Below are positions 1,556-20,798 of a stretch of 20,798 nt of DNA, one piece after another; positions within the stretch are counted from its first letter, which is position 1; each line of letters begins with the position of its first letter. Source of the DNA: a virus. The position numbers and the translations under genes are program-made. The notes beneath the pieces are model-generated. The model searched no databases. It had not been told where the DNA came from and saw only the letters and a program-made list of their open reading frames with translations. Where the stretch lies: IMG/VR virus record IMGVR_UViG_3300035034_002788, positions 1-20,798 of that record; one strand, written 5' to 3'.

Positions 1556-3087
1556 AAACGCATGAAGATACAACTATCCGCGATCGATGCTGGTATCAAC
1601 CTGGTAGCGGTGGAGGCCGCTATTGGCATGAGAATGATTCCAGCCGTTGGGTATTTAAAAACTCAACGCAGTTTACTCGGTGGCTCCAAAGCCAAGGGAT
1701 CACCAAGATGATTCCAGAGGAGCAGCGCAAAAATGGTGTCACGCTTTCAGAGCTCGATGCCTTGCTCACTGAATTGGAAACCGAAAGACTAATCGAATAT
1801 GCTGGTGGCCTCGCAGGATGGAAAGCAGGGGTACATGAGATCAATAAGAATAAGATTCTCGTTACTCATTCGCCTGAACTCATCGAGAAGAAGGAATTCA
1901 CACAAGAGGATCTCGATAATGTTTGGGATATGAAAGCCTACGGATGGCCCGTACTTGGATCATTTCTCTCTAATTTATTTAATGGAATCGAAAGGGAAGG
2001 GGATAAGAGCGAAGTCATCGAACAGCTTCCTCGTTTTATTACTTGGCTTTGGCACTTCATGACCAGCCTCTATGCCTCAAAATACTCAACAGGAATGGCA
2101 TTGGCTATGGCTGGGGAGCCTGAGTGCGGTAAAACGCTTTTGTCTGAGCTAATTAAAACGATGGCCGGAGGTATCGTCGCACGCCCGTATCGGTACATGG
2201 TTGGCCAGGATAATTTCAATGAGGAGTTTCTAGAAGCGGCTTTACTCTTAGTCGATGATGAAAATAGCGATACTCACATCCAGCAGAGATTGAAATTCGC
2301 CAGTGAGCTAAAACAGATCGTAGCGACTAGGGGGACTCGTATCCGCGCCATGCACCAGAAAGCCATGATCCTTCATCCGATTCAGCGATTAATGATTTGC
2401 GTTAACCTGGAGCCAGAGCGCATTCAGGTATTACCTCCCATCGATACAGATATCCGCGATAAGCTTTTAGTCCTCAAGGGATACTCACATGCTATGCCAA
2501 TGCCTACGCGCACCTATCAAGAACAGGAAGCATTCTGGAACACTTTAATGACCGAGCTCCCGCACTTTATTCATTGGCTTCTCGAAGTCTATTCCCCGCC
2601 GCTCGAACAGCTCGGAAGATTTGGTCCCAAAGCATGGCAACACCCTGCCATCCTGGAGGAGTTGAGTAAGCTCAACCCGGAGACCCGCACTGAAGAATTT
2701 ATTCAGCGTTACATGCAATCACAGCAACCGCAGATTCGTGATAATGATCTCGATAAGATGGCTGCCGTCGATCGTGCTAAGATTGCCCCATACATGAGTG
2801 AGGGTTCACTCGGTGGTTTTATTGGTACCATTGGTGAACTTAGAACCCGCCTGATTAGCGATGGAGAATCGGCACCATTAACGATGTTAGAACGCCGTGA
2901 AGTACGTCCTTCCGCCTATCTAGGGAGAGATTTAACCGCGCTGTCACGCAAGTATCCTGATGCAATTTGGCAGACCAGATCACCAGGTAATGGAGCCCGC
3001 AACTGGATTGTTTTACACGATGACTTGCCTTCAAACCGTGACAGCATGACAGAAACCGACAGCAAGGAGTGTAACGATGCAAGCTAG
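1549..3087 (+). CDS. Replicative helicase-like P-loop ATPase
   Basis: This 512-residue protein has a Walker A motif GEPECGKT at residues 189-196 and a hydrophobic Walker B run ending VDDE at 235-238. Further conserved-looking blocks follow (LKQIVATRGTRIRAMHQK, then RLMICVNLEPERIQVLPPID). The order resembles superfamily 3/DUF5906-type phage helicases, which pair with a primase to unwind DNA at the fork. The N-terminal ~130 residues resemble the substrate-binding part of primase-helicases but carry no motif I can name. The start overlaps the primase stop by 7 bases, so the two are probably translationally coupled. The last codons coincide with one arm of a 22-bp inverted repeat (3038-3059), which may constrain the C-terminus. 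Helicase assignment is good; exact family is uncertain. Confidence 0.78.
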   Translation: MLETHEDTTIRDRCWYQPGSGGGRYWHENDSSRWVFKNSTQFTRWLQSQGITKMIPEEQRKNGVTLSELDALLTELETERLIEYAGGLAGWKAGVHEINKNKILVTHSPELIEKKEFTQEDLDNVWDMKAYGWPVLGSFLSNLFNGIEREGDKSEVIEQLPRFITWLWHFMTSLYASKYSTGMALAMAGEPECGKTLLSELIKTMAGGIVARPYRYMVGQDNFNEEFLEAALLLVDDENSDTHIQQRLKFASELKQIVATRGTRIRAMHQKAMILHPIQRLMICVNLEPERIQVLPPIDTDIRDKLLVLKGYSHAMPMPTRTYQEQEAFWNTLMTELPHFIHWLLEVYSPPLEQLGRFGPKAWQHPAILEELSKLNPETRTEEFIQRYMQSQQPQIRDNDLDKMAAVDRAKIAPYMSEGSLGGFIGTIGELRTRLISDGESAPLTMLERREVRPSAYLGRDLTALSRKYPDAIWQTRSPGNGARNWIVLHDDLPSNRDSMTETDSKECNDAS

Positions 3088-3265
3088 ACTACAAGTGACT
3101 TGTGACAGCGTGACAGCACTCTCTCTCCCTTTTTATGTGTGTGCCTGTGTATGTGTGATATATCTATTTATTACTGTCACGCTGTCACAAACAACAAAGA
3201 CCCTTGATAAATACAGGGATCAAACCGTGACGGCATATCCGGATCGGTTTCTGTCATGCTGTCAC
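3038..3265. repeat. Nested inverted repeats built from GTGACAGC octamers
   Basis: Two perfect inverted repeats are nested here. The outer arms (3038-3059 and 3244-3265) match over 22 bases; the inner arms (3100-3116 and 3174-3190) match over 17. Each arm contains the octamer GTGACAGC or a one-base variant. At 3102-3117 the octamer is perfectly tandem, preceded by GTGACTT. The block TCAAACCGTGACRGCAT also occurs as a direct repeat at 3031-3047 and 3220-3236. The space between the inner arms is G/T-rich and then A/T-rich. Repeated binding sites next to an A/T-rich stretch and beside primase and helicase genes suggest a replication origin or an operator cluster; that role is inferred. Confidence 0.85.
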
Positions 3266-3529
3266 AGCATTCAGGCCACCGCTCTAGAGCCCACTATCTA
3301 TGCAGCTTTCAAGGCGGTATCCGCTACACCAGTATCCATGCGACTTCCAATCGCATCGCTTTCAAATCCTACCGCGTCTCAAGCCACTGTTTATGCGACC
3401 TTCAGAGCATCCCTCCGCAACCCACTATCCATGCGGGTTAAAACGGGTCCTTCCCAGCGCATTGCATCAATGCAGGTTCCGCGAGAGGTCGCATTCGCAA
3501 CAAGCGTCAACTTTCAAAAGTTAGGTTAA
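3077..3529 (+). CDS. Doubtful 150-residue reading frame across the repeat region
   Basis: An open frame of 150 codons starts at an ATG with a well-placed AAGGAG (3064-3069) and overlaps the helicase stop by 11 bases, so a gene caller may report it. The translation argues against a normal protein. It reads through both inner inverted-repeat arms, has a Cys/Val/Ile-rich stretch from the G/T-rich DNA (residues about 19-37, possibly membrane-like), then a Ser/Thr/Ala/Pro-rich part following the roughly 38-base DNA repeats. Other frames are also open over parts of the same stretch (3256-3441 and 3300-3524), which suggests stop-poor repetitive DNA rather than selection on one frame. If translated it would be a small protein of unknown function. 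Confidence 0.3.
   Translation: MQARLQVTCDSVTALSLPFYVCACVCVIYLFITVTLSQTTKTLDKYRDQTVTAYPDRFLSCCHSIQATALEPTIYAAFKAVSATPVSMRLPIASLSNPTASQATVYATFRASLRNPLSMRVKTGPSQRIASMQVPREVAFATSVNFQKLG
3281..3492. repeat. Degenerate ~38-base repeats with small hairpins
   Basis: Diverged units start with a version of CCACTATCCATGCG. The ATGC positions are at 3300, 3338, 3393, 3431 and 3470, giving spacings of 38, 55, 38 and 39 bases. Several short perfect stems are interspersed: GCTCTAGAGC palindrome (3281-3290), GCGG-TAT-CCGC (3314-3324), ATGCGA-CTTCCAA-TCGCAT (3338-3356), GCATTG-CAT-CAATGC (3459-3473) and GCGA-GAGG-TCGC (3481-3492). Together with the inverted repeats just upstream they fill the gap between the helicase and the next gene. 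They could be an origin, a structured RNA or a protein-binding array; the sequence does not decide. Confidence 0.55.
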
Positions 3530-14409: not shown

Positions 14410-15477
14410 ATGTCTTGGGATAACACAGCACCATCCTCGATCGACCAGACGACTGCCTTCACAAGTGGCAGTCCGTCTGCCGTCGATGCGGATACCGCAT
14501 TTGATAATGGCAGCCCGTCCGCTATTGATGCGGATACTGCATTCGGTAATGGCTGGCACGCTTCCATTGATGCTGATGTTAATTTTAATAATGGTAGTCC
14601 CGCTTCCATCGATGCCGATGAGCCTTTTGTCGATTTTCCTGCGTTCGCCATTGATGACCTTATTGGAGGATATCTCTATCAATACGATCATCCAGGAGGA
14701 GCCTTGCTTAATACCTATCCGATTTATGGCAATACCGCTCTCGATCAATACAATAATCTTGATATTGCAACAGACGACGATTGGGATCCGGAACCTACCG
14801 ATGACGATGATCATTTCTGGATGCTCGAAGATGCGGATGGGAATTTTTTTCGCGCCGAAGATGTCGATCTCAATACTCCAGGTTCTCCATTTGACGGAAA
14901 TTTCAAGATCCTTGGTGCCGCACATGGGTTAATTTCTCAAGCCGTATCTTTCAACGGATCCGCACCTGCGGAAAAAGATCAAAGCGCTGCCTTTGATAAT
15001 ACCGCACCTTCCGCGAAGGATCAAAGCGCCGCTTTCGATAATACCGTTCCCACCGAGAAAGATCAGGATGTAACTTTTAATAATACGAGTCCCGCTGAAA
15101 TCTCCGCCGAAGCACCGATGGATAATACTACACCCGAGCAAGTGGTTCTCCCAGGAGAAGCCTCGCCCATCGGTCCATCACTTGGACCCACCAGTCCCCT
15201 CGAAGTCGCTCACACGGAGACGCTTCTCAACACACAAAATTACCGCGTTACCGTCGGTTCTCGAGTCGCACCGGTCACAATCACACTTCCCGATCCTCCT
15301 GGAGTCGGTCAATGGATCGAAATTATCGATGCAAGCGAAGATGCAGCAGCATATCCGATCACCGTCGATGCGGGTTCAGAAGAATTCTCAGGATTCGGTG
15401 GCACCACTTACGAAATCGACCGCAATGGAGCGGCATTGGAAATCTACTATACAAATTCAAAATGGAAACCATTATAA
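14410..15477 (+). CDS. Repeat-containing tail/virion protein
   Basis: A 355-residue acidic protein with two arrays of an exact 14-residue period. Array one covers residues 4-73 (units such as DNGSPSAIDADTAF), array two residues 182-237 plus a partial unit (for example DNTAPSAKDQSAAF). The consensus is (D/N)N(G/T)xPSxxDxxxAF. Between them lies an Asp/Tyr-rich region (DNNLDIATDDDWDPEPTDDDDHFW). The C-terminal ~90 residues (NYRVTVGSRVAPVTITLPDPPGVGQWIEIIDAS) look like a beta domain common in phage tail-fibre and appendage proteins. Asp-rich repeats might bind calcium. Host-contact or structural role is inferred from position next to other tail-tip-like genes; I recognise no specific family. Confidence 0.65.
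   Translation: MSWDNTAPSSIDQTTAFTSGSPSAVDADTAFDNGSPSAIDADTAFGNGWHASIDADVNFNNGSPASIDADEPFVDFPAFAIDDLIGGYLYQYDHPGGALLNTYPIYGNTALDQYNNLDIATDDDWDPEPTDDDDHFWMLEDADGNFFRAEDVDLNTPGSPFDGNFKILGAAHGLISQAVSFNGSAPAEKDQSAAFDNTAPSAKDQSAAFDNTVPTEKDQDVTFNNTSPAEISAEAPMDNTTPEQVVLPGEASPIGPSLGPTSPLEVAHTETLLNTQNYRVTVGSRVAPVTITLPDPPGVGQWIEIIDASEDAAAYPITVDAGSEEFSGFGGTTYEIDRNGAALEIYYTNSKWKPL
14419..14628 (+). repeat. Five tandem 42-base coding repeats
   Basis: The first array of the repeat protein: five units of exactly 14 codons with consensus (D/N)NGSPSAIDADTAF. Base identity between units is high in GGCAGTCC/TCTGC and GATGC/GGATAC stretches. Copy number could change by slippage or recombination without breaking the frame. 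Confidence 0.85.
14953..15120 (+). repeat. Four tandem 42-base coding repeats, second array
   Basis: Units of 14 codons with consensus DNTAPSxKDQSAAF, followed by a partial fifth unit (DNTTPEQVV). They share the phase and the N-T/G-x-P...D...F skeleton of the first array, so both probably come from one ancestral unit and later diverged. Confidence 0.82.
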
Positions 15478-15761: not shown

Positions 15762-16211
15762 ATGAGTTTTAACATCACAGAACCCATCGATTCAGAAACC
15801 GCCGCCGCTAAAGCCAATAAAGACGGTACTGGCCTCACCAATCTAATCTCAGGTTGGCTCGCAAGCTTGCTCCCTACCAACACTGACCGAGCGGCTTGGC
15901 TAATAGCACTAAACGCACCGCCATTATACACATCAGCCAACATCAGTGCCGCTAAAACAATCGTAGAGACGCCCGTTGAAATATTTGCAGGAGTTAGCCT
16001 ATTGGCTGGTCGCACGTGGTTAGCTATCCGCAATGAGTCTACTGATACACGTATCCGATTCGGTCGATTAACTGCAAACCTGCAACGTGACGGTGAGATA
16101 ATCGAGCCCGGGGCATTTGTCCTCATCCAGTTTTTACCGGGTGTGACTACAGCAATCTACGCCTCGTCTGAAGGGGCGGCTATCAAAGCACACATTACGG
16201 AGGATGTATAA
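15762..16211 (+). CDS. Beta-rich virion protein with extra N-terminal segment (paralogue 1)
   Basis: A 149-residue protein. The first ~60 residues (for example EPIDSETAAAKANKDGTGLTNL and LASLLPTNTDRAAWLIAL) are helical and resemble linker segments of tail-fibre proteins. From residue ~68 (ISAAKTIVETPVEI) to the end it closely matches the next gene: LAIRNESTDTRIRFGRLTANLQRDGEIIEPG here versus LTIRNDSSDTRIRIGRLTTNLQRDGQVIEPG there. Both end with IYAxSEGAAIKxxI. The gene may be a fusion of a tail-derived N-terminus with the duplicated domain. It sits two bases before paralogue 2. Likely a structural appendage of the tail; function inferred. Confidence 0.65.
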   Translation: MSFNITEPIDSETAAAKANKDGTGLTNLISGWLASLLPTNTDRAAWLIALNAPPLYTSANISAAKTIVETPVEIFAGVSLLAGRTWLAIRNESTDTRIRFGRLTANLQRDGEIIEPGAFVLIQFLPGVTTAIYASSEGAAIKAHITEDV

Positions 16212-16213
16212 TA

Positions 16214-16501
16214 ATGATCTTAGAACTATCAGGACAATCCGCAAAAGTAACGGCCACTAAGACAATTGTCGAAACGCCAGCCGAGGCCAATGTGAGCGGG
16301 ACTAATTTAGTTGGTCGCACTAAACTGACAATACGTAATGACTCGTCAGACACGCGTATTCGCATTGGTCGATTAACTACAAACCTTCAACGCGACGGTC
16401 AAGTGATCGAGCCAGGCGACACAATCACATTATTTCCAACTACCACAATTTACGCGTGTTCCGAAGGAGCAGCGATTAAAACAAATATCAGCGAGAACTA
16501 A
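16214..16501 (+). CDS. Beta-rich virion protein (paralogue 2)
   Basis: A 95-residue single-domain copy of the C-terminal part of the preceding gene. About two thirds of positions agree over the core, and the DNA is also similar in places (CGATTAACTRCAAACCT). It lacks the ~60-residue N-terminal segment. The start at 16214 follows GGAGG about eight bases upstream. Together with the upstream copy and the 92-residue gene it forms a trio of probable beta-sandwich proteins next to the DGR target, so they may mount the receptor-binding protein on the tail. That role is inferred. Confidence 0.65.
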   Translation: MILELSGQSAKVTATKTIVETPAEANVSGTNLVGRTKLTIRNDSSDTRIRIGRLTTNLQRDGQVIEPGDTITLFPTTTIYACSEGAAIKTNISEN

Positions 16502-16502
16502 A

Positions 16503-16715
16503 ATGACAAATATTATCACACTACTAAACAACGGGACGGCTCAAATAGACGTCGATTTTACGGACGAATCTGTCGATCTCCAGTCATCCACCACCATAAT
16601 TGGCGATGAACAAAAAGCACTCAATTTCTTGCCAATATTCGAGGCTGATTTGAGATTTAATAATTCACACCTTTTCCCACAGCCGGAACCTATTATTAAC
16701 GAGGAGGGACTATAA
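16503..16715 (+). CDS. Small protein of unknown function before the DGR target
   Basis: A 70-residue acidic protein (MTNIITLLNNGTAQIDVDF to the C-terminal PEPIINEEGL), tightly packed between paralogue 2 and the DGR target gene, one base from each. It has alternating hydrophobic residues but no motif I recognise, no signal peptide and no membrane helix. Dense packing and consistent frame support a real gene. Small acidic proteins in this position may be tail-tip connectors or chaperones for the receptor-binding protein, but the sequence does not show it. Confidence 0.65.
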   Translation: MTNIITLLNNGTAQIDVDFTDESVDLQSSTTIIGDEQKALNFLPIFEADLRFNNSHLFPQPEPIINEEGL

Positions 16716-16716
16716 T

Positions 16717-17913
16717 ATGCATATAGCACAATCAAAAACTAGATCAGTAGCTGATCAATTTAATCGTCTACGTGCGGCGGAAATGAGCGTTGTGCAAGCG
16801 GCGCTTAACAATGGGTATCTCATCACGGATGCACTCACACAGCGAGAACTGCGAGAGCGAGTTGAGACCGCGAGCGATGGTAAAAATACCGTACTCTTCA
16901 CAGATGAAGGAGTGCCAGGAATTTACGTCCGCATCCCAGCAAATGCACTTGCACTTGGAAGTCTCGCCACTGAATTAGGTATATCGGGACTCCTTCACGA
17001 GGCATTTAAAGTTGGGGGAGCGTGGAAGGATGAAATTTTGATAGGAAAATATCAGGGTTTTATGGTCAATCACACCACAGGTGCGAGGATTGATAACGAC
17101 GCCTCCACCGCCATTCCTAACGCTAGAGTTGCGTGCCTCCCCATGACAGCCCCGGGCTATCTGGTTAATTTCGATTTATGCCTAAACTCATGCGCTAATA
17201 ATGGATCAGGTTATCACCTAATCTCAAACCCAGAATGGTCGTATCTGTACCTACTAACGCTCGCAAACGGTCGAGAAGTCCGAGGCAACAACAACAACCT
17301 TGGAGCTGATTATGTCCGCACCGACGAAACCTGCAAATGGGCGACAGGAGACGAATCAAATAAACGCGGGTTAGCAGGATCAGGCCCTGTGTCATGGACA
17401 CACGATGGCACCCCCTATGGCGTATATGACCTCAACGGAAATGTTTGGGAATGGTGTTCTCAACTCCGCCTAAACGCTGGAGAAATCCAGATATTAGAGG
17501 AGTTTACAGGAGACCACACAGCCGTGTCAACGGACTGGAAGACAATCGACTCAACAACGGGTAATATTGTAGCCGCTGGATCGGCAGGATCGTTAAAGAT
17601 TGATAGCATCGCCTCCGTGCCTGTAATTAGCGATACAATAACGTCATCGGCGGCCGCCGCTAGGCATACACAATTTAACGCACTCACGGCAAATATAACC
17701 GTCCCAGCTCGCGCTAAACGCCTTGGACTTTACCCATTAGCAACATCCCCAACAAGAGGTCGATTCTACTCAGTCAATGTAACTGAGCGGCTCCCCGTCC
17801 GCGGTGGCGGTTGGATCAACGCCTCCCTTGCAGGCGTTGCCGCGCTCGGCCTCAACATCCCTCGGTCCAACCGCATCGGCAGCTTTGGGTTCCGTCCCGC
17901 TTTTGCAACCTGA
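16717..17913 (+). CDS. DGR target: FGE/C-type-lectin-fold variable receptor-binding protein
   Basis: A 398-residue protein, probably displayed at the tail tip to bind host receptors. The N-terminal ~100 residues are unique. The rest has the formylglycine-generating enzyme/C-type-lectin fold used by many DGR targets: WKDEILIGKYQGF, GSGYHLISNPEWSYLYLL, GVYDLNGNVWEWC (residues 235-247) and a C-terminus RGGGW...FGFRPAF (362-396). DGR variable proteins end with this W...GFRP pattern, and adenine-specific mutagenesis alters the codons in between. GAGGAGGG lies eight bases before the ATG. The stop overlaps avd. Sulfatase activation is unlikely; a binding role is expected from the DGR context. Confidence 0.9.
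   Translation: MHIAQSKTRSVADQFNRLRAAEMSVVQAALNNGYLITDALTQRELRERVETASDGKNTVLFTDEGVPGIYVRIPANALALGSLATELGISGLLHEAFKVGGAWKDEILIGKYQGFMVNHTTGARIDNDASTAIPNARVACLPMTAPGYLVNFDLCLNSCANNGSGYHLISNPEWSYLYLLTLANGREVRGNNNNLGADYVRTDETCKWATGDESNKRGLAGSGPVSWTHDGTPYGVYDLNGNVWEWCSQLRLNAGEIQILEEFTGDHTAVSTDWKTIDSTTGNIVAAGSAGSLKIDSIASVPVISDTITSSAAAARHTQFNALTANITVPARAKRLGLYPLATSPTRGRFYSVNVTERLPVRGGGWINASLAGVAALGLNIPRSNRIGSFGFRPAFAT
17799..17910 (+). other. DGR variable region (VR) at the 3' end of the target gene
   Basis: Residues 362-398 match DGR variable regions. Positions usually encoded by AAC in a template now read ATC (Ile367), GGC (Gly378), ATC (Ile381), CGC (Arg386), ATC (Ile387), GGC (Gly388) and AGC (Ser389). 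All keep C in the third base, exactly as A-to-N mutagenesis of AAC would leave them; Asn368, Asn380 and Asn385 remain AAC. TTT (Phe390) may derive from ATT. The conserved ends (RGGGW, FGFRPAF) mark the region. No template copy is visible in this window. Confidence 0.82.
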
Positions 17914-17935
17914 TGACTGATAAACTGATGACTGA
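17910..17935 (+). repeat. 11-base direct repeat at the target stop / avd start
   Basis: CTGATGACTGA occurs at 17910-17920 and 17925-17935, separated by TAAA. The first copy contains the target stop and an avd start; the second contains an alternative in-frame ATG. The repeat lies immediately downstream of the VR, where DGRs often keep elements needed for homing. It may be a short duplication with no function. Confidence 0.7.
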
Positions 17936-18215
17936 CACGCCATATAAGGGATTTTTGCTCCAGGATAAAACAATACAGTTTATCCATGAGCTATATATTG
18001 CCCTGAAAATGTACCCCAAATGCGAACGCCACGTGCTTGCGCAAGAAACCCGAATTAGTGCGTATCGAATCCTTAGATACATTATACAAGCATCAAAAAG
18101 CAGAAATAAATCCAGAGCGGTCGAAGCCGCGGATGTCGAAGTCGCACAACACGCCAACCCAAATAAGCTAATCCGCCAAATTTTCCAAAGCTTAACCGCT
18201 AACTCTAATAATTAA
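17913..18215 (+). CDS. avd: Avd-like DGR accessory variability protein
   Basis: A 100-residue basic helical protein starting in the stop codon of the target (TGATG); another in-frame ATG is at 17928. The stretch IQFIHELYIALKMYPKCERHVLAQETRISAYRILRYIIQASKSRNKSR matches the Avd/four-helix-bundle family (bAvd), which typically reads 'Y.L...FPK.ER..L...I......LL..I..A'. Avd pentamers bind the DGR reverse transcriptase and template RNA and are required for mutagenic cDNA synthesis. The C-terminal part (NPNKLIRQIFQSL) fits the last helix, slightly shortened. The neighbouring target strongly supports the call. Its usual partner, the reverse transcriptase, is missing from this window. Confidence 0.8.
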   Translation: MTDKLMTDTPYKGFLLQDKTIQFIHELYIALKMYPKCERHVLAQETRISAYRILRYIIQASKSRNKSRAVEAADVEVAQHANPNKLIRQIFQSLTANSNN

Positions 18216-18246: not shown

Positions 18247-18762
18247 ATGAGCATAATACAGGTCATGGCCGAACTCGGTGGTGTAGGTGCCGCTGCCCCA
18301 TTAGTGGGTGGCCTCTTTTCGAGTGCAATGAATGGATGGCGGGAATCGCTGATCCTCGCTCGCAATCTCAACAAAGAAGCCGCAGACCTCGAAAACGCTA
18401 ACAATGTAATTAAGCTCAAGGAATTAGAATCTGGAAAGCTTGGAAAACAGGTGGTCTGGATGATTGTATTCACTTCACTGGCCGTCCTTTCCGCTGGGGT
18501 GTGGGTTCCTGTGTTGGGAATTCTGATACATATCGTTTATGCTTTATGCGATATCGCGGATCAAGCTCCAACGATTGCCGTAGTGTGGTACTGGCCGACG
18601 CAAGGAAGTTTTTTATTCTTTGAATGGGAAAATCTAAAAACATTCACTGTAGGTCCGAAAAATGCGACCTACACCATAGCAATTCTCCCCTCATTTATTT
18701 CAATGTCCGCAAATGCCGTTTCATTTTTCATGATGAACCGCGTAAGGAAAAAACTTTATTAA
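18247..18762 (+). CDS. Membrane protein, possible holin
   Basis: A 171-residue protein with an amphipathic N-terminus (AELGGVGAAAPLVGGLFSSAMNGW), a charged helix (residues ~38-65) and hydrophobic segments at ~69-100 (WMIVFTSLAVLSAGVWVPVLGILIHIVYAL) and ~143-163, ending in a basic tail (NRVRKKLY). The order of a soluble helix, two or three membrane spans and a Lys/Arg end resembles 3TM/GTA-type phage holins that let endolysin cross the inner membrane. A one-span protein follows, as in holin-spanin pairs. No endolysin gene is visible, so a different membrane role is possible. The leader is A/T-rich without Shine-Dalgarno. Confidence 0.55.
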   Translation: MSIIQVMAELGGVGAAAPLVGGLFSSAMNGWRESLILARNLNKEAADLENANNVIKLKELESGKLGKQVVWMIVFTSLAVLSAGVWVPVLGILIHIVYALCDIADQAPTIAVVWYWPTQGSFLFFEWENLKTFTVGPKNATYTIAILPSFISMSANAVSFFMMNRVRKKLY

Positions 18763-19170: not shown

Positions 19171-19653
19171 ATGGAAAAAAACAACACACCCGAACAAAAC
19201 CTCACCGACATTCTCAAGGAAGGTCGCCAGATCACAATCGAACGCGCCGAAGCGGGTAAACCCGTAACGGAAGAAATTTTCGTCCACGAAGTTACTTATG
19301 AGGATATCGTCGATGGTCCCTATATCAAACTTTTGAAGAATGATATACGCGAGATGTTCGAATGGCTTTTGGATAAACCCAAAGGCTGGACCAAATCCCT
19401 CACCCGAGAGAGTTGGCAATCGCTTCGGGAAACGGAGGAAGCCATAAATTTCGACTTCGCCCTCGCCGAGATCAAAGCAATTCACGATCGGGGAGGGCAA
19501 CTGAAGTTCATCGACGAACAGATCATCGAGCAAGCAAAGATGATGATGTCTTTAGTTCCCTCTGCAACCAACTTGCAGACTACGCCAGGGTACAAAAAAT
19601 CAGTCGTAAGCAATGCCTCAAAGCGACCCCATCCTGGGTTGAAACCGTCCTGA
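19171..19653 (+). CDS. Tail assembly chaperone, gpG-like
   Basis: A 160-residue acidic, helical protein just before the tape measure gene. This is the place of the G gene in lambda-type tails, whose product guides polymerisation of tail tube around the tape measure. The N-terminal ~60 residues hold strands (RQITIERAEAGKPVTEEIFVHEVTYEDIVDG) and the middle is helical (EMFEWLLDKPKGW, IDEQIIEQAKMMMSLV). The C-terminal ~20 residues (KSVVSNASKRPHPGLKPS) are likely filler after the frameshift site. The leader (AAAATTTAAAGAT) has no Shine-Dalgarno. Assignment rests on position, size and the overlapping second frame. Confidence 0.68.
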   Translation: MEKNNTPEQNLTDILKEGRQITIERAEAGKPVTEEIFVHEVTYEDIVDGPYIKLLKNDIREMFEWLLDKPKGWTKSLTRESWQSLRETEEAINFDFALAEIKAIHDRGGQLKFIDEQIIEQAKMMMSLVPSATNLQTTPGYKKSVVSNASKRPHPGLKPS

Positions 19654-19784
19654 AATCGTCCCTTAAATCCGAACGTCGCCAAGCCGCATTTGTAATTCGT
19701 GGCACCTACGAAGCATCTTTCGCGCTTCAAGATAAAAAACATTTTCCAAAATTCGATACCTACCTAAAGAGCCTAAATGAGTAA
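19171..19784 (+). CDS. Probable -1 frameshift product, gpGT-like
   Basis: The frame -1 to G stays open from before 19413 to a TAA at 19782-19784 and overlaps the tape measure start by 8 bases. At 19593-19599 the G frame reads TAC AAA AAA, giving the slippery C AAA AAA. Slipping back one base continues as ISRKQCLKATPSWVETVL and on to FDTYLKSLNE, adding 61 residues for a 204-residue fusion. In lambda and many siphoviruses a -1 shift of this kind makes the GT chaperone, with the T part contacting tube protein. The site is weaker than the classical G GGA AAG. An independent start for the second frame is not evident. Confidence 0.55.
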
Positions 19785-20798
19785 AGAACGCATAGATATC
19801 CTTTTCAAGATGCACGCAGATATCCAAGATATGAAGCGTATGAATAAGGAAGCCGCCACCAGCAAAAAGCGATTTGGTGATATTGGTAAGATGCTCAAAA
19901 GTGGATTAGGGATGGCTATTGGGATCACGTCAATCGGGATGCTCGCGACTGCCGTGAAGAATCTTTCCCGCGAGATGATTACGATGGGAGCCCTCCTTCG
20001 TGATAATGCCAAAGCCTTAGGGGTGAGTGCAGAGTTCCTCCAGGTATGGAGACAAGCCGCCGAACAAAATAGCGTTTCCCAAACTGCTGCTGATACAGGT
20101 CTTCAACGTTTCACCCGCCGTCTCGGTGAAGCCGCACGAGGTCAAGGAGAGTTGCTTAAGGTCGTGCAGGAGTACGATGTCCAGCTCACGAATTCCGATG
20201 GTACCACGCGCACGAGTATCGAAGTGATGGAGGATTTCGCCGAGATCATTAAGAACACGAAGGATCAAAAGGAACGTCTCCGTATTGCATTTAAGCTTTT
20301 CGACTCTGAAGGTGCCAAATTGGTCAATGTCCTTGCCGATGGGAAAGAGGGTCTCGAAGAATATCACGGTCAATTGATCGATAATAATGCCCTCATTCGC
20401 GAAGATACTGTCGAAGCTCTCGGACGCGCTTCCGAGGCAATGACGAATTTCGGGAAAGGCGTTACAACAACGATGGCCGAATCCGTCGCCGCTGTATGGA
20501 CATGGGTGGAAGTTCTCGCGATGGCTGCAGATCAACAGGAGGACGATCAAAAAACGCGCCGCCAAGCGATTCTGCGATTATCCGGAAGGGATGAAAATTC
20601 CTTGGAAGGGAAGAAGGGGAGAGGAGTAAGCCGCGCGCTCGAATTAATGATCCGCGATAATGAATTGTCTCAATCTCAAATCCAAGCGGAAATGGAAAAA
20701 GTCCGCGTGGAACGCATTCAGGAGGAGATTCGCCTTCGTCGTGAGAAGTTGAAAGTTTTAGAAGAGGAGCGGATTAAAGAGAAGGAGGCTGCCGATCA
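19777..20798 (+). CDS. Tape measure protein, N-terminal part (runs off the window)
   Basis: A frame open from ATG 19777 to the window end, at least 340 codons, overlapping the T-frame stop by 8 bases. It begins MSKERIDILFKMHADIQDMK. A hydrophobic patch follows (SGLGMAIGITSIGMLATAV), then long helical stretches and ALGVSAEFLQVWRQAAEQNSVSQTAADTGLQRFTRRLGEAARG, a block typical of phage tape measure proteins. The last ~80 residues are a long Glu/Arg-rich coiled coil (EEIRLRREKLKVLEEERIKEKEAA). The tape measure sets tail length and is extruded into the host membrane. The C-terminus is outside the window. Confidence 0.88.
   Translation, partial: MSKERIDILFKMHADIQDMKRMNKEAATSKKRFGDIGKMLKSGLGMAIGITSIGMLATAVKNLSREMITMGALLRDNAKALGVSAEFLQVWRQAAEQNSVSQTAADTGLQRFTRRLGEAARGQGELLKVVQEYDVQLTNSDGTTRTSIEVMEDFAEIIKNTKDQKERLRIAFKLFDSEGAKLVNVLADGKEGLEEYHGQLIDNNALIREDTVEALGRASEAMTNFGKGVTTTMAESVAAVWTWVEVLAMAADQQEDDQKTRRQAILRLSGRDENSLEGKKGRGVSRALELMIRDNELSQSQIQAEMEKVRVERIQEEIRLRREKLKVLEEERIKEKEAAD

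Follow-up and report, generated by a model that had tools for sequence, protein, structure and literature searches.

The stretch of phage DNA analysed here (the window; 20,798 bases, a linear fragment and the whole of its IMG/VR record) most probably carries a dead diversity-generating retroelement (DGR), which has left a receptor binder frozen. It contains a DGR-type target gene with a variable region (VR), directly followed by an avd open reading frame (ORF) that is truncated and ends in a tail resembling the C-terminus of a DGR reverse transcriptase (RT). The hairpin usual behind the VR is absent, and neither an RT nor a template repeat is present in the 20.8 kb. Rewriting in the reconstituted BPP-1 DGR depends on Avd, the template repeat and the RT, and is severely impaired once the stem-loop is lost (PMC12875486). 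As only a stump of Avd is left, no RT or template repeat is nearby and the hairpin is lacking, we infer from the state of these parts that the receptor binder stays as it was last written. The initial annotation had offered three options, namely that RT and template lie far away, act in trans or have been lost; loss is favoured by the truncated avd with its RT-like tail, whereas a split DGR that still works is disfavoured, since Avd is broken and the hairpin missing. Table 1 lists the features of the locus.

Table 1. Features of the target-avd locus and of the adjoining genes in the window
Feature	Positions	Strand	Basis
70-aa protein, 5' of the target	16503..16715	+	similar small protein precedes the target in L159
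DGR-type variable protein (receptor-binding/tail-tip, TaqVP-like C-type-lectin fold)	16717..17913	+	profile and fold
VR, PVRGGGWINASLAGVAALGLNIPRSNRIGSFGFRP	17794..17898	+	low A, NNC codon excess
Target-avd junction without the usual GC-rich tetraloop hairpin	17899..17955	+	DNA fold, hairpin score
Retained 5' part of avd	17952..18146	+	ORF residues 14-78; helices 1-2, start of helix 3
Candidate deletion scar, RT gene 3' end in frame (VAQHANPNKLIRQIFQSLTANSNN, stop)	18141..18215	+	RT C-terminus profile match
Membrane protein, holin-like by position	18247..18762	+	position and hydrophobicity only

The target gene, its variable region and the adjoining junction

The target belongs to phrog_2889 (E 4e-88), scores above the cut-off for the FGE-sulfatase domain PF03781, and matches TaqVP, the DGR variable protein of Thermus aquaticus (PDB 5vf4), with a profile E-value of 4e-100. 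An AlphaFold (AF2) model of the protein (pLDDT 83, pTM 0.87) was compared with known structures by means of Foldseek; the best matches were three TaqVP chains (E ~1e-33, TM 0.76-0.80), and Mtd and the Treponema variable protein came next with weaker scores. The target is therefore of the TaqVP type by sequence and by fold over its full length, and it carries its VR at the C-terminus of a C-type-lectin-type scaffold. The fold is common to nearly the whole target at 33% identity. TaqVP has been described as a DGR variable protein, whereas the window gene resides in a phage contig without an RT.

The VR is depleted in A (10% versus 29% elsewhere in the target gene), and C occupies the third position in 25 of its 44 codons, compared with 95 of the 355 remaining ones. 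Judged by eye, its codons could have arisen by A-to-N mutation of the template, whose peptide in intact relatives reads P(I/L)RGGNWNN..NAG..(A)LNLNN.RSN.N.NIGFRP. An exact-pattern scan of viral contigs with VR variants or the template returned one unrelated DGR-like locus (L083). The variable pattern reported in the initial annotation for the C-terminus is real and intact, and its gene positions were right as well: the target (16717-17913) shares one base with the avd ORF (17913-18215), and the membrane protein starts 31 bases after the latter, at 18247. Since the VR still looks freshly written, the loss, if real, would be recent, or else the VR has been conserved.

Relatives usually have a GC-rich hairpin 3' of the VR, and its loop is in most cases GATA or GGTA. 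The corresponding junction DNA of the window folds with only -0.6 kcal/mol (z +1.8), and its hairpin score of 12 is close to the median of shuffled sequence (11). Over all 133 compared targets the median is 21, and 118 of them score at least 16. Note that a strong hairpin is also wanting in about 14 of the 132 other targets, some of which have an intact RT; therefore, its absence alone is a weak point that plays a supporting role.

The missing reverse transcriptase and template repeat

The relatives surveyed had homologous targets in 58 viral contigs and in several annotated phages, and 80 further loci were found via Avd. These relatives arrange their genes as target, spacer, avd, template repeat and RT. 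In the Avd survey, the gap between avd and RT was 258-382 nt almost wherever the sequence reached far enough downstream, so that a normally placed RT would be visible in the window; the template repeat was located between the two genes at more than 20 loci. The idea that all DGRs of this target family are split was rejected, because the RT adjoins in nearly all of them. Among the annotated phages, Pseudoalteromonas ACA1 and ACA2, Vibrio VP58.5, Bacillus BalMu-1 and Faecalibacterium FP_Lagaffe share with the window a homologous target with a C-terminal VR, the N-terminal half of Avd and the same order. In contrast to the window, they retain the full Avd, the template repeat, the RT and, where folded, the hairpin.

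No RT was detected in the 20.8 kb record, either with PF00078 or in a sensitive six-frame search with a profile of 38 DGR RTs. The template repeat was sought by scanning both strands for matches to the VR under the rule that any change is permitted at a template A; the best matches in the 20.8 kb were at the level of shuffled sequence or only slightly above it, the latter falling in A-rich stretches and having low plain identity. A similar scan recovered the template repeat in more than 20 DGR-bearing loci. These searches bear out the initial annotation, which had noted neither element in the window: of the parts of a working DGR, RT and template repeat are both absent from the record.

The 20.8 kb are only a part of the phage, and the remainder is the main uncertainty for the reading that the RT has been lost. 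The record starts near a primase and breaks off within the tape-measure gene, which matches phrog_8125 (E 7.5e-21); judged against relatives of 35-38 kb, both flanks are incomplete. It is thus conceivable that the unsequenced part contains template repeat and RT, and perhaps a full avd, which still rewrite the VR. Besides the fragmentary record, the A-depleted and NNC-rich VR would suit such a split but working DGR, and distant second targets do exist: in L024, a second target (19332-20195) lies ~8 kb from an avd, template repeat and RT core, and its VR fits the template repeat of that core with zero unexplained mismatches, which makes it a two-target DGR. We nevertheless regard a split DGR as unlikely in our case, because the local avd is broken and ends in a scar of the RT gene, the VR has no hairpin behind it, the RT adjoins avd in nearly all relatives, and backbone relatives of 34-44 kb lack an RT. 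Accepting loss would imply that no second RT is encoded in the unsequenced part.

These backbone relatives comprise a prophage of Cerasicoccus arenae (Verrucomicrobiota) and contigs that look like prophages and reach 44 kb, with identities of 49-60% for the portal protein (nearer relatives) and of 47-51% for the terminase. The host of the phage is probably a member of the Verrucomicrobia, and the backbone relatives are verrucomicrobial prophages without an RT: among the records examined, including those of 34-44 kb, RT, target and avd are all absent. A search of the backbone relatives with A4, which had no positive control, was empty, and a tblastn search of loci with the target agrees with it. 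As RT, target and avd are missing there, the cassette is a module set into an otherwise DGR-free backbone. The terminase search of genome collections gave just two relatives; avd and the membrane protein, each used as a single query, gave no close ones. The membrane protein also matched no family.

A truncated avd with an RT-like tail

A profile search places the ORF at 17913-18215 in the Avd family, as had been proposed, but corrects the assumption that avd is intact, since the match stops after about 65 N-terminal residues. The Pfam bAvd score (PF22296) is 45.8 bits at a cut-off of 40 and is confined to profile positions 2-65 of 107; the ORF is also assigned to phrog_3206, "Avd protein of DGR". 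With a profile of 49 relatives, residues 14-78 scored 36.7 bits at positions 3-67 of ~108. The invariant residues P35, E38, L42, K66, D74 and E76 are present, whereas the ORF lacks helix 4 together with the conserved GKM.GGW end and does not encode the complete four-helix Avd. A frameshift hiding helix 4 was considered and dismissed, as the other downstream frames gave nothing. The AF2 model of the ORF consists of three helices, the last third being of low confidence.

Beyond the Avd part, the last ~20 residues of the ORF (VAQHANPNKLIRQIFQSLTA) correspond in a profile of the DGR RT C-terminus to positions 42-61; the consensus of this profile reads ..hakHansyrlrkkllnelvl. The score is 7.2 bits within the whole ORF and 8.9-10.2 bits for the tail. 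None of 10,000 shuffles equalled the tail score, and the tail was the best of 469 window ORFs for this profile. Among 3,383 natural ORF tails, 31 score as high, and all 25 among the matches listed are RT tails. In 4,390 ORFs from stretches of DGR-less phages, the sole better score belongs to a genuine relic in Vibrio phage pYD38-B, which is described below. The ORF thus matches the corresponding end of the RT profile above chance. With the first profile, built from 38 RTs, 4 of 3,000 shuffles were as good and the result was merely suggestive; it became clear after the RTs of the 80 further Avd loci had been added. The match rests on ~20 residues, and the idea of a fusion was raised after the tail had been seen.

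A truncated avd ORF whose tail matches the RT C-terminus is what a deletion would leave behind, and this supports the loss of the DGR. The in-frame Avd::RT scar was probably created by a single event. In the ancestor, the target would have been followed by the hairpin, avd, the template repeat and the RT, and the deletion would have run from inside avd, past the codons of helix 2, to a point no more than ~25 codons before the end of the RT gene. Helix 4 and whatever else followed in avd would have gone with the template repeat and the catalytic RT, and the two stumps would have been fused in frame to an ORF of 100 codons; the lost RT would have ended in ...QHANPNKLIRQIF.... The fused peptide is probably a by-product, and the remaining target would still work as a normal receptor-binding protein of the tail, with its variable loop fixed at the last written variant.

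Alternatively, the ORF could encode an Avd-like protein that is short by nature or has been repurposed, its C-terminus having diverged independently of any RT deletion. Its frame is open, it is tightly coupled to the target by the shared base, and K66, D74 and E76 are kept. We consider this improbable: helix 4 and the GKM.GGW end are gone, whereas Avd is of full length in 128 of 128 uncut relatives, the window protein being the sole truncated one; moreover, the tail matches the RT C-terminus just where this is expected, and the three-helix model is of low confidence in its last third. To a similarly small degree we would credit a variant in which the fusion is a kept 100-residue protein, still binding for example nucleic acid or the target transcript, beside a fixed receptor binder once the enzymatic part of the retroelement had gone. 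The avd-RT junction may also be an assembly join.

DGR decay in related phages and the surroundings of the target

The deletion proposed for the window has a counterpart in an isolated phage. When DGR-less phages were used as a negative control for the RT-tail test, there was one match, of 33.7 bits, and it lay right after the target of pYD38-B (NC_021561). Aligned to the DNA of the intact Pseudoalteromonas phage ACA2, pYD38-B matches it over the VR, the hairpin and avd as far as ...TTCCCAAAA; the match picks up again ~1.45 kb later in ACA2, close to the RT 3' end (CAATCGTGG...), and extends into the next gene. The locus (L093:7028-7212) accordingly consists of a 5' stump of avd and a 3' stump of the RT gene, mutually out of frame. 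An avd-to-RT deletion is proven here by DNA alignment, independently of the window. pYD38-B thus carries a dead DGR in a sequenced isolate, and the genes there are annotated as hypothetical proteins only.

Like the window, pYD38-B has a TaqVP-type target, behind which a deletion has linked the 5' stump of avd with the 3' stump of the RT gene, and has lost the template repeat and the body of the RT. Unlike in the window, the stumps are out of frame, the deletion begins earlier in avd, and the hairpin behind the VR is kept. Taken together, the two loci suggest that deletion from avd to the 3' end of the RT gene is a recurrent way in which phages switch off the mutator while keeping one receptor-binding variant. 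DGRs are usually discovered by searching for the RT, and dead ones are therefore easily missed. The scar offers a simple handle for finding frozen variants and for asking when it pays to drop diversification; it also guards against annotating avd stumps as parts of a working DGR.

Other stages of decay were met in the survey. In L011, 990 nt of the RT gene are deleted, and the template repeat and the RT tail are kept. In L110 (6098-6862) and L123 (6556-7320), an ORF for a LAGLIDADG endonuclease (phrog_4645, E 3e-37) takes the place of the RT body, and the C-terminal RT tail persists downstream of it. L159 has a complete avd and no RT in 5.9 kb. L014 and L017, which have the target only, belong to the same clade as the intact L016, L018 and L020; with L011/L080 in addition, this clade displays a graded loss of the DGR among close phages. 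Klebsiella YMC16 and Salicola CGphi29 are complete phages with a target of the same family and no RT annotated alongside.

The closest homologue of the target that was found (43%) is an orphan TaqVP-like protein (L086 / L089:3589-5376) in a prophage of genome G373, which belongs to the class of Cerasicoccus. Its VR looks intact; no avd adjoins it, and an RT match occurs nowhere in the 3.9 Mb genome. This genome also bears on the notion that a host or a co-resident prophage supplies RT and template in trans. Targets remote from the RT within one genome are known from Treponema and cyanobacteria (PMC4891356, PMC7517822). However, the search of two genomes of the host lineage, those of Cerasicoccus arenae and G373, gave no RT match, the VR lacks the hairpin, and a matching template would be required in trans as well, which makes this explanation highly improbable.

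Orphan DGR targets as such are of an already known kind. For Treponema denticola, VR-bearing targets without an RT have been described as DGR remnants (PMC4891356), and for cyanobacteria it has been proposed that the diversifying parts are discarded once an optimal variant exists (PMC7517822). The orphans of T. denticola and Anabaena resemble the window in having a VR-bearing target without RT or template repeat and in being read as remnants; they differ in that they are bacterial chromosomal loci, and the available text of these two sources mentions no avd::RT deletion scar (PMC4891356, PMC7517822). Of the "unusual split or orphan DGR" initially suspected, the split working form is disfavoured, and the orphan form is upheld, although such targets have been described before. 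Within the literature searched, which lacks most subscription papers, the details that seem to be new are the phage-borne avd::RT scar with its open frame, the independent equivalent in pYD38-B and the graded series of decay.

Several minor observations concern the surroundings of the target. The 70-residue protein preceding it (AQIDVDFTDESVDLQSSTTIIGDEQKALNFLPIFEADLRFN) has its equivalent at 2-208 of L159 (TIKVNFTDESIELPGETTVKGGEAEALNYLPTFEADLRRN). The two ORFs further upstream (15762-16211 and 16214-16501) share a 110-nt repeat of 73% identity (16002-16111, 16307-16416), that is, a duplication adjoining the target. A tail-fibre-like protein at 14410-15477 contains tandem repeats of 14 residues (42-nt units), and the Cerasicoccus prophage has a similar repetitive protein at the equivalent position (L085 18554-19621). 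Finally, an inverted repeat (3027-3059 / 3244-3276; 33 nt, 85% complementary, 184 nt spacing) is located near the end of a helicase-like gene.
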